From: Helicobacteraceae bacterium
GTDB taxonomy: Bacteria; Campylobacterota; Campylobacteria; Campylobacterales; SZUA-545
Assembly (NCBI GenBank): GCA_031268655.1
Contig: JAIRWX010000076.1
Coordinates: forward strand, 1-33,289
Length of the DNA: 33,289 nt
Direction of reading: 5' to 3'
Each line of letters opens with the position of its first letter. Within the stretch, counting starts at the first letter, position 1. Positions 23,856-27,424 of the stretch are shown here, in pieces. The position numbers and the translations under genes were made by a program. The notes beneath the pieces are model-generated. The model made no database searches. It saw only the letters and a list, made by a program, of their open reading frames with translations, and was not told the DNA's origin.

Positions 23856-23900
23856 ATGATTCTTTCGGGAAAATTAGAGCGCAAGCATAACAAAAGCGAG

Positions 23901-23906
23901 ATTTTA
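23901..23906 (-). promoter_or_regulatory. Predicted -10 element for tkt
   Basis: TAAAAT on the minus strand in GCGTAAAATCTCG, 45 bases upstream of the tkt ATG, between tkt and the acidic-tailed protein gene. The longer leader makes this less certain than the others. Confidence 0.3.
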
Positions 23907-23926
23907 CGCGCCCAAAAAGCGATCCG

Positions 23927-23986
23927 TTACGGCTCTCGTCTCGGATCGATAACGGTCTGATTGAAATCGACGGAGATTAACGTCAT
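23927..23986 (-). other. Diverged copy of the preceding gene's C-terminal segment, out of frame past the stop
   Basis: Read from ATG 23986, which overlaps the TGA of the 1122-aa gene as ATGA, this stretch encodes the 19 residues MTLISVDFNQTVIDPRREP and then TAA. It closely matches ITLVPIDSDQTIIDPRREP encoded inside the gene at about 24125-24181. The two copies share a 22-nt identical block (23931-23952 and 24125-24146), and the remaining differences are mostly transitions that conserve the amino-acid pattern. It lies in the -1 frame relative to the gene end and looks like an old in-frame tail cut off by a frameshift, or one reached by slippage at the GGGG just before the stop. Confidence 0.65.
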
Positions 23987-26900
23987 GCCCCGTCTTCTTC
24001 ATCCTCGTCGCCGTCCTCGCTTTCTTCGTCTCCCGCGTCCTCGCCGTCTTCTTCATCCTCGTCGCCGTCTCCCGCATCTTCATCGTCGCCGTCTCTAGCG
24101 TCTTCATCGTCCTCCGCGGCAAGCGGCTCTCGTCTCGGATCGATAATCGTCTGATCGGAATCGATGGGAACTAGCGTTATGTCTGCGTCAGAGCCTAAAA
24201 AACGTCCGTAGGCGAGCTTGTTTCTCTCTTTATGGTAAAAATAAAAGAGATCGCCCTGCCAAGAGGTCGTATAAACAATTTTGCCTACGTTGTCGCCGTC
24301 CAAAATCAGCTCGCTGCTAACCGGCGTTCCGCTAAACAGCGTCAATCCTCTGGGATAGTAAATCAGCGCCGTCGTATTGCTGTCCGTCGCGTTATATTCG
24401 CCTGCGGACAACGAAAGCTGAACGCCGCTATCGGTCGGAGCGCCGAAGTTATCGGCCCAGCGTTGATGGTTCTGCCCGTCGAGGCTGAACGCGATCGGCG
24501 TAGCGTTGGTTTCGTTTTCGTCCGTAATCCTGTTGCTCGAAAGCAGATGCGTCCCTCTGTACAGCGGCGCGTAAAAGATTCTTCTTACGTCCGATTGCAG
24601 TTTGTTCGACGCTTCGCCGATCATTCTCAGATCGTAATAGGGCTTATTGTGATCGTAGAGAATCTCCGGACGATTCAGCAGATTCAATTTTTCGATCGCG
24701 TCGCCAAAGTAGATCAGATAGGGATTATTGCCGTTGTCTGAAAGGTTGCCCTCGTATATGTAAATTTTGCTCGCCTCGTTGGTTTTTAACCGCAAGCCGC
24801 CGCGATAACCGCCGCTTTCGATCGTATCAAAGGCAAACTCGATCGCGCGCGGCTTGCGATTGTCGAATCGAATTCTTTCGTCGGATAATTTCGCGCCAAG
24901 CCCGCTGGTCATATACAGCCCAAGCGCCATCTGCGGCGCGTTAAACGGCTTTTCGCTAAGAGCGCTCAAATCGCGCCCGTCGAGCGAGACATAGTAGTTG
25001 TGGCTCGCGCCGTTTTTGAGCAGAGGGGCGATCTGAGCGTCGATATGCAAAAAGACGTTTTCGGGCATCTCAATCTGGTTGGCGTACAGCCCGCTTAGTC
25101 CGTTAGCGTCGATGGATATATCCAGCGATATGTTGTTGCGCGTCTTTGAGATCGCGTTTGATCCAGCGCCGTCAAATATATTGGAGTAATCCTGCGTTAT
25201 CTTGCTTTGCAAAGCTGTCGCGCCGCTTGTTATCGCGTTTTGCGCGCCATATTCGCGCATATAGACCCAATATCCGCGATCTTTGCGCAGTTTATAGAGA
25301 TTAAACCGCGAAAAAGCCTCGCGCTGCGAATCGACCGGCACGGTCAAATCCGCTTGCCGCCATAAAATTGTGTCGTCGTCTCTCGTTACGCCGCTTAGGA
25401 TAATATCTGGCGCGCTTAAGCCGCCGCCGGCTTTTTGCAAATTGTATAGCGCGCCGTCCACGGGAAAATCCGCGCTAAATTGCGCGACGAAGTTAAGATC
25501 GTCGGTTAAAACCGTCGCCTGATAGGGCGTACCGTCCTCTTTGATCGCCGCGTTCGCCAGCGCGAAGTGCGAATAAACCTCGTCGATCGCGCCTTTGACG
25601 AACGAGCTGTCCTCCTCGTATAGATAACGTTCGTTAAACTGAGCGCGGGCGCCAAGCTCTTTCAGCTCAAAATCGCGCAGGGCGATCGAGCTTAACAGAA
25701 CGCGATTTGACGGCAAAACATAAGCGTTAACGCCCGTAACGTTTGCGTAGTAATTGATTTGATCTACGATCGGACTGCCGTACTCAATCAGCGCGTCAGA
25801 AACGCCGCGAAGCAAAAAGGTTTCGCCCGTAAAGCTGCTGTTGTAGTCAAACAGCCGCGAAAAAGTCGCGTCTCGCGCATATACCCGCTTGTTGGCGGCT
25901 ATCAGCAGCGTCTCCGACGAGCCGTCAAAATCCGCGTCTATCAAAACCGCGCCGCTTTTCGTCGAGGCGTTATGCGAGGCGAGCAGGGCGTTCACGACGG
26001 ATAGAACGTCTTTTGCGGCGCTTGCGGCGCTAAGATCGATCGAGCTTATCAGGTTATCGCCGGCAAAACCTATCTGCATGGCGAAATGCTTTAGCGTCTG
26101 CGCGTCGAACAGCGCCTCGTTTAAGCGCAAAGCCAGAATATGCTCGTCCGTTCGCGTCATATTAAACGTTGTAGTTTCTGGAGCGCCCTGATAAAAGTCT
26201 TGATTAGCGATAGTTTTTAATCCCTCAAGCGCCACGCCAAAATCCTCGTCGCTAATCAAAACGATTCCATTATCGCCCGCCGCGTTCTCGGCGGGATAGG
26301 CGCGGATTTTCCACGCGTTCTCGCCGCTGATATCCAAGGCGCGAATCTTGGCGTTAAACTCTCTTGCCGCCGCGATCGGGTCTGATTTAGAGACGCTTAT
26401 CTCGTTTTTAGCGAAGTTATCCCTCGTTCGCAATCCGGACAGATTCGCTTCGGGGATAAAAACCGCGCCTGGCGCGTTTCTTAAAAACCCGTCGTTGAAA
26501 CTCAGCATATTCCAGCGCGGCTGAACGTTGCTGGCGTACGTTTCGTCGGATAGCTCGCTTGTGGCTAGTATCAGCCCCGCGTTTACGTCCGCAGGCGCGT
26601 CGATTCGTATCCAGTAGGCTCTGCCCGCCTCGAAGCTATCAAAGTCGTTGTTTTGCTTTCTGGAATCGTAAGTAGCCCAAGTCTGCGAGCTTGGACTCCA
26701 AGAGTAGGCGGTAACCGCGCCGTTTAGCAGCATTTGACGACCGCCCGTTCTGATCGTGTCGTTTACGCAATAAAGGCTTTTGCAGGTAAGAGTAAAATGA
26801 TCCAGCGCCGAAACGTTGTTGTCGTTTAAGTTAGCGTCGATCAGATCGATTATGCGCGAAACGGGCGAATGTATGCGCAACTCAAGGTTGGCGGGAGTTC

Positions 26901-27351
26901 CGCGCGTATATTTTGGATCGAATTTGCCTTGCATAACCAGCCCGTTATCAAATTGGATATGAAACGGTCTGCCTTTATAATCCGCCTGAAAACGGATCTC
27001 CAGATCGGCTTTTCTGCCCGCGCCCGCGCTTGAGACAAACATGCCAAGCATAGCCTTGTCAGAATCTTTGCTTAACGTTTCGTAGCTGATAACCGCCTTC
27101 GAAAGATTTGAATCGGTCGGCAAAATTCTAAGCCCGATCGAGGACAAAATCTCGTCGCTTTGATCCCAAGCGAAGTTATGATCGCCGTTTTGTCGCTTTA
27201 ATGTAGCCCAGCCGTTTTCAAAACCCATCGCCGAGCCGTGAAAGCCGTTAACGCCGACAAGATGCCACACGCCGCCGCGCAAAGGAAGCTGATAGACGGA
27301 AGCAAAAACGCTCGAAATAAAACATATAAGCAGCAGAACCGCTGATCGCAT
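23983..27351 (-). CDS. Large secreted protein with acidic repeat tail, function unknown
   Basis: A 1122-residue exported protein that I do not recognise. I chose ATG 27351 because GAGG lies eight bases upstream and a signal peptide follows at once (MRSAVLLLICFISSVFA); the in-frame codon at 27408 would bury it. The mature N-terminus (YQLPLRGGVWHLVGVNGFHG) and further Trp/Gly-rich stretches suggest a beta-rich surface or periplasmic protein. Several segments describe a repeated fold, for example GYWVYMREYG and RAYWIRIDAPADVNAGLIL. There is no membrane anchor or sorting motif. The last 43 residues (1080-1122) are nearly all Asp/Glu/Gly/Ala, encoded by tandem repeats. It sits between xseA and tkt, among housekeeping genes with which it has no obvious link. 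Confidence 0.8.
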   Translation of the reverse strand: MRSAVLLLICFISSVFASVYQLPLRGGVWHLVGVNGFHGSAMGFENGWATLKRQNGDHNFAWDQSDEILSSIGLRILPTDSNLSKAVISYETLSKDSDKAMLGMFVSSAGAGRKADLEIRFQADYKGRPFHIQFDNGLVMQGKFDPKYTRGTPANLELRIHSPVSRIIDLIDANLNDNNVSALDHFTLTCKSLYCVNDTIRTGGRQMLLNGAVTAYSWSPSSQTWATYDSRKQNNDFDSFEAGRAYWIRIDAPADVNAGLILATSELSDETYASNVQPRWNMLSFNDGFLRNAPGAVFIPEANLSGLRTRDNFAKNEISVSKSDPIAAAREFNAKIRALDISGENAWKIRAYPAENAAGDNGIVLISDEDFGVALEGLKTIANQDFYQGAPETTTFNMTRTDEHILALRLNEALFDAQTLKHFAMQIGFAGDNLISSIDLSAASAAKDVLSVVNALLASHNASTKSGAVLIDADFDGSSETLLIAANKRVYARDATFSRLFDYNSSFTGETFLLRGVSDALIEYGSPIVDQINYYANVTGVNAYVLPSNRVLLSSIALRDFELKELGARAQFNERYLYEEDSSFVKGAIDEVYSHFALANAAIKEDGTPYQATVLTDDLNFVAQFSADFPVDGALYNLQKAGGGLSAPDIILSGVTRDDDTILWRQADLTVPVDSQREAFSRFNLYKLRKDRGYWVYMREYGAQNAITSGATALQSKITQDYSNIFDGAGSNAISKTRNNISLDISIDANGLSGLYANQIEMPENVFLHIDAQIAPLLKNGASHNYYVSLDGRDLSALSEKPFNAPQMALGLYMTSGLGAKLSDERIRFDNRKPRAIEFAFDTIESGGYRGGLRLKTNEASKIYIYEGNLSDNGNNPYLIYFGDAIEKLNLLNRPEILYDHNKPYYDLRMIGEASNKLQSDVRRIFYAPLYRGTHLLSSNRITDENETNATPIAFSLDGQNHQRWADNFGAPTDSGVQLSLSAGEYNATDSNTTALIYYPRGLTLFSGTPVSSELILDGDNVGKIVYTTSWQGDLFYFYHKERNKLAYGRFLGSDADITLVPIDSDQTIIDPRREPLAAEDDEDARDGDDEDAGDGDEDEEDGEDAGDEESEDGDEDEEDGA
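23991..24116 (-). repeat. 54-bp-period tandem repeat encoding an Asp/Glu-rich tail
   Basis: A 25-nt block at 23991-24015 recurs exactly at 24045-24069, giving a 54-bp (18-codon) period; shorter partial units extend to about 24116. Translated, it gives DGDEDEEDGEDAGDEESE followed by DGDEDEEDGA. The array sits between two copies of another segment (24125-24181 and 23927-23986), so tail and flanks seem to have been duplicated together. Arrays of this kind change length by slippage. Confidence 0.8.
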
Positions 27352-27424
27352 TAGGAATCCTCGCGTCGGTTTTGCGGAAAACTTAGCAACATCCGTTCCG
27401 ATTCGCAATCAAAGCTCCGTCGCT

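Follow-up and report, generated by a model that had tools for sequence, protein, structure and literature searches.

We found that a short segment lying directly past the stop codon of a predicted secreted-type protein gene is, in all likelihood, a decaying relic of the former end of that gene, not a hidden tail of the protein. The gene is encoded on the minus strand of the window, by which we mean the whole 33,289-nt stretch of DNA analysed (contig C73 of a 1.63 Mb assembly in 76 contigs). The sample names of its nearest named relatives, which are MAGs, may hint at a termite gut as the source. Campylobacterota MAGs from termite guts have been described (PMC9137090). The features on which the argument turns are as follows.

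23983 to 27351, minus strand: host gene, predicted to encode a secreted-type protein; the ORF can be extended to a TTG at 27408
24124 to 24180, minus strand: the terminal segment, copy 1, ITLVPIDSDQTIIDPRREP; residues 1058-1063 of the protein, the first six of this copy, correspond to the last predicted β strand
23986 to 24123, minus strand: acidic, internally repetitive tract of 46 aa, the present C-terminus; the sister G001 lacks it
23983 to 23985, minus strand: present stop codon, TGA, as read in the sequence
23930 to 23986, minus strand: copy 2, MTLISVDFNQTVIDPRREP, the probable relic of the ancestral terminus; in the -1 frame, with 47 of 57 nt identical to copy 1
23927 to 23929, minus strand: TAA after copy 2, at the ancestral stop position, following RRxP as in G001 and G003
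23988 to 23991, minus strand: GGGG run to which a preliminary description of this DNA had pointed, at the position given there; ordinary by the count of such runs in the window

As listed, the ORF (23983-27408(-)) has a TTG start and encodes 1141 aa. Translation more likely begins at the ATG at 27351, since a signal-peptide-like stretch behind it aligns with the starts of the orthologues; the gene then spans 23983-27351(-) and encodes 1122 aa. The protein has no match in Pfam-A, even at E values up to 5, none in PDB at E values up to 1, and none above the cut-off in NCBIfam. At E ≤ 1e-30, and with paralogues included, family matches are found in 18 of 398 genomes of the order. In the window, the host gene is preceded by the gene for the exonuclease VII large subunit and followed by a transketolase gene. 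In G010 the orthologue likewise has both of these genes next to it, and in G001 it has the exonuclease gene, which supports the orthology. Around the orthologues of the other relatives, neither neighbour was found in the DNA covered. We also observed that five paralogues (L069, at G000:C58:13668-15947, and L062, L063, L071 and L072) each directly precede an ORF with the motif PDVGxAxExxQILxxCK....LPPMVE, and each such pair appears to form a conserved two-gene cassette.

The preliminary description had reported a diverged copy of the last conserved segment in the -1 frame past the stop, followed by TAA, and this is confirmed at 23930-23986. The two copies start 194 nt apart. Their local alignment score is 66, while the maximum among 300 first-order Markov shuffles is 30; the similarity is thus far beyond chance. 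A dispersed repeat was considered as the source and rejected. A protein search of the same genome with the end of the gene gave matches at the places of copy 1 and copy 2 only, and a DNA search with a 401-nt query matched one place, so that both searches returned known places only.

We then read the C-termini of eleven orthologues (G000, which is the window, and G001, G003, G004, G005, G007, G008, G009, G010, G011 and G013). Those of G004 and G007 were read from the fragments L021 and L014, respectively; L021 appears to be the end of the G004 orthologue that runs off another contig. Nine of the eleven lack an acidic tail and end at the segment or a few residues from it. In the sister G001, as well as in G003, the protein terminates precisely at the segment, and the outgroups have no acidic tail. 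Past the stop of each of the two tailed orthologues, those of the window and G005, there is a second copy. This 3'-end comparison had been proposed in the preliminary description, and its outcome agrees with the 'lost tail' suggested there: the untailed orthologues end at the segment, and the counterpart of copy 2 in G005 lies in frame past nonsense codons. A test for a second copy was made on nine orthologues and three paralogues, with only 293 nt available downstream in G003 and with the G004 and G007 fragments excluded. In G001 it gave a score of 28 against a maximum of 26 among 300 shuffles, through a 14-nt match between the end of its segment and a site 166-179 nt downstream. This match is short, GC-rich and beside a CCCCCC..GGGGGG element, and was not counted as a second copy. 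By eye, the 500 nt past the G001 gene (L003) contain two instances of a GC-rich element, a CCCCCC..GGGGGG inverted pair with ATTGAGG after it, and this element is perhaps a dispersed repeat.

G005 provides a second view of the same arrangement. Its gene end reads segment, 50-codon acidic tract, TAA, PIDSC*TIVNLRRTP and TAA, all in frame, so that its copy 2 is in frame and interrupted by an internal stop. G003 is the untailed sister of G005, with 92% DNA identity over the gene. The upstream part of the G003 terminus matches copy 1 of G005 at 59 of 61 nt, the last 54 being identical, and the G003 terminus with its 3' flank aligns to copy 2 of G005 with its flank. Because the left part of the G003 terminus matches copy 1, and the right part and flank match copy 2, we conclude that the second copy in G005 is the old terminus, which has decayed and now lies about 190 nt farther on. 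Past the new stop, the old terminus can thus be followed together with its flank in G005, by comparison with G003; what can be followed in the window is only copy 2 with its TAA.

The pattern of change in copy 2 is that of a relaxed sequence. It had been claimed that the amino-acid pattern is better conserved than the DNA, and hence that the copy was selected as protein. This does not hold: the copies agree at 47 of 57 nt (82%) but at only 12 of 19 residues (63%). The pN/pS ratio over the 10 differing sites is 0.75, an uncorrected value that has a wide error with only 19 codons. Between G000 and G001, the host gene itself has a dN/dS of 0.23 when corrected for multiple hits and of about 0.36 when left uncorrected, from the same counts. 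Polarised by the outgroups G001 and G003, five of the seven non-synonymous changes fall on copy 2 and one falls on copy 1, the seventh being undecided, which speaks against selection of copy 2 as protein. When 10 differences of like kind are placed at random in a neutral simulation, the stop-free copies keep 12.9 residues on average, and 12 are observed. No stop codon occurs within the 19 codons of copy 2, and the neutral simulation stays open 74% of the time. The BLOSUM62 score of copy 2 lies slightly above the neutral mean (P = 0.155), indicating slightly conservative substitutions. Purifying selection on a second-frame product thus left no sign in the pN/pS over these 19 codons or in the simulation. 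The two copies do not differ at all over their last 23 nt (23930-23952 and 24124-24146), and the preceding 34 nt hold all 10 differences, a distribution with P = 0.003 if the differences were placed at random. Gene conversion, or a constraint that is site-specific or acts on the DNA, is possible for this identical end.

The preliminary description had also raised the idea that copy 2 is still expressed, whether by a -1 frameshift or by phase variation at the G run, or by reinitiation at the ATGA. The -1 frame is indeed open across 23998-23930, although only from 23998, an ATGA overlap exists and copy 2 itself is stop-free. Programmed -1 frameshifting uses an in-frame X XXY YYZ heptamer before the zero-frame stop and a downstream stimulating structure. 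The last 60 codons contain no such heptamer in frame, and the 90 nt at 23994-23905(-) show no stimulating fold (z-score -0.49, with 55 of 200 shuffles folding at least as well). Frameshifting thus found no support. Phase variation at homopolymers involves runs of about 7 or more. In the window, 61 G/C runs are exactly 4 long, the GGGG run among them, and the longest run of any kind in 23900-27351 is T6, which argues against a phase-variable gene. Reinitiation at the ATGA would produce a free peptide of 19 residues, and none of the C-termini checked in relatives has an open second copy, a result that does not favour this route. Together with the pN/pS of 0.75 and the nonsense codons in the G005 counterpart, these results make continued expression of copy 2 highly improbable.

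Alternatively, the frame break might be an error of assembly or sequencing, and the real protein would then continue through copy 2. A change of one base in length would join the frames, the assembly is fragmented (76 contigs) and the tract is repetitive. However, short-read data are not prone to error at a G run of 4 bases, should the reads be of this type, and the changes accumulated on copy 2 are mostly non-synonymous. Moreover, G005 has a like arrangement of its relic with nonsense codons in place of the frame break. We therefore regard an error as quite unlikely.

The number of tail gains was addressed with a tree of nine orthologues, built from protein and from codons with the tail region excluded. 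The tree has the form ((G000,G001),(G005,G003)); the support is 100 (protein) and 96 (codons) for G000 with G001, and 100 in both versions for G005 with G003. Each pair thus contains one tailed and one untailed member. The acidic tracts of the window and G005 are not similar to each other, as their score is equalled or exceeded in 162 of 1000 codon shuffles. With one tailed member in each pair, untailed outgroups and dissimilar tracts, two separate gains are the most parsimonious reading of the tree. A single gain in the ancestor of G000, G001, G003 and G005, followed by exact loss in G001 and G003 through recombination between the copies, can also be considered. The direct repeats flanking the tract would be able to recombine, and the G003 terminus is copy-1-like on its left and copy-2-like on its right, as expected of a recombinant. 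This course of events, however, requires two exact losses, leaves the dissimilar tracts of G000 and G005 to be accounted for, and has to accommodate the lack of the tail in more distant orthologues as well; we consider it unlikely.

An origin of the tracts from the terminal segment was tried and is unsupported: 372 of 1000 codon shuffles reach the score in G005, and 790 of 1000 do in the window. Across the two genomes, the G005 tract has a weak 14-nt match to the window segment (17 of 1000 shuffles score as high), and 278 of 1000 shuffles score as high for the window tract against the G005 segment. In a protein search of seven genomes of the genus, the acidic tract matched only its own place. 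Separately, we noticed that the long ORF of a G010 paralogue (L071) ends in ADPRDDNGDGDNGDDD, which is acidic after DPR and has no second copy downstream. This end is perhaps a further acidic tail.

The displaced-terminus reading can be put as a series of steps. The ancestral protein would have ended at PIDSxQTIxDPRRxP and a stop. In the lineage of the window, the last ~58 nt would have become present twice, with an acidic low-complexity tract in between, presumably by a duplication through slippage or recombination and then growth of the tract as repeats. Copy 1, carrying the last strand of the C-terminal domain, would have been retained in the protein. Copy 2 with the old stop would once have been read in frame, and would now be decaying out of frame as intergenic DNA. 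G005 would have reached the same outcome, probably from a separate origin, with nonsense codons instead of a change of frame. Two structure models of the host protein are poor, with mean pLDDT values of 46.5 and 45.1. Both of these low-confidence models place the last β strand at the first six residues of copy 1, and the confidence drops sharply soon after. Copy 1 probably serves as the working terminus of the protein, as it supplies the last predicted strand and the model confidence falls soon after it. The acidic tail is probably a flexible charged appendix of the predicted secreted protein, and it may be of some benefit.

A wider possibility is that acidic C-terminal tails arise recurrently at the 3' end of this gene family through one process, in which the last ~45-58 nt are duplicated, an acidic tract grows between the copies and the old terminus is released by a stop or a change of frame. 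We regard this as doubtful. If it were true, one genus would have gained such a tail at least twice, which would suggest selection for a charged tail on a secreted protein. Three acidic tails in related proteins, with the G010 paralogue counted, would likewise hint at selection.

We then compared the arrangement with known systems. It shares with -1 programmed ribosomal frameshifting two overlapping frames close to the 3' end. In contrast to that system, the window shows no slippery heptamer, no notable structure and no protein constraint in the second frame, and the case is most likely not one of recoding. A conserved-looking peptide directly past a stop does not have to mean recoding. A literature search of titles and the beginnings of abstracts found, among the matches listed, no account of this gene or of a process of duplication plus acidic tract. 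In stop-shift evolution, the subject of a 2011 study, orthologues reportedly differ in their C-termini through a moved stop. The present orthologues likewise differ in their C-termini with the stop moved, but in the window the tail consists of acidic repeats that separate two copies of the old terminus, and is not simply former 3' non-coding DNA. The two pairs of relatives, each with and without the new charged tail and with the displaced old terminus still legible, offer a small, clear example of change in bacterial C-termini. In a report on de novo C-termini in yeast, 45 of 54 additions arose by frameshift and 9 of 54 by a point mutation of the stop (PMC4494051). The likeness lies in a 3' end altered by a frameshift or by a change of the stop, with a sister species used to polarise the change, and the difference lies in yeast reading existing DNA anew, whereas the window would combine a duplication with a new tract and leave the old terminus as a relic (PMC4494051). 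The case is thus an ordinary kind of C-terminal evolution, well preserved here and nearest to stop-shift and de novo C-termini.
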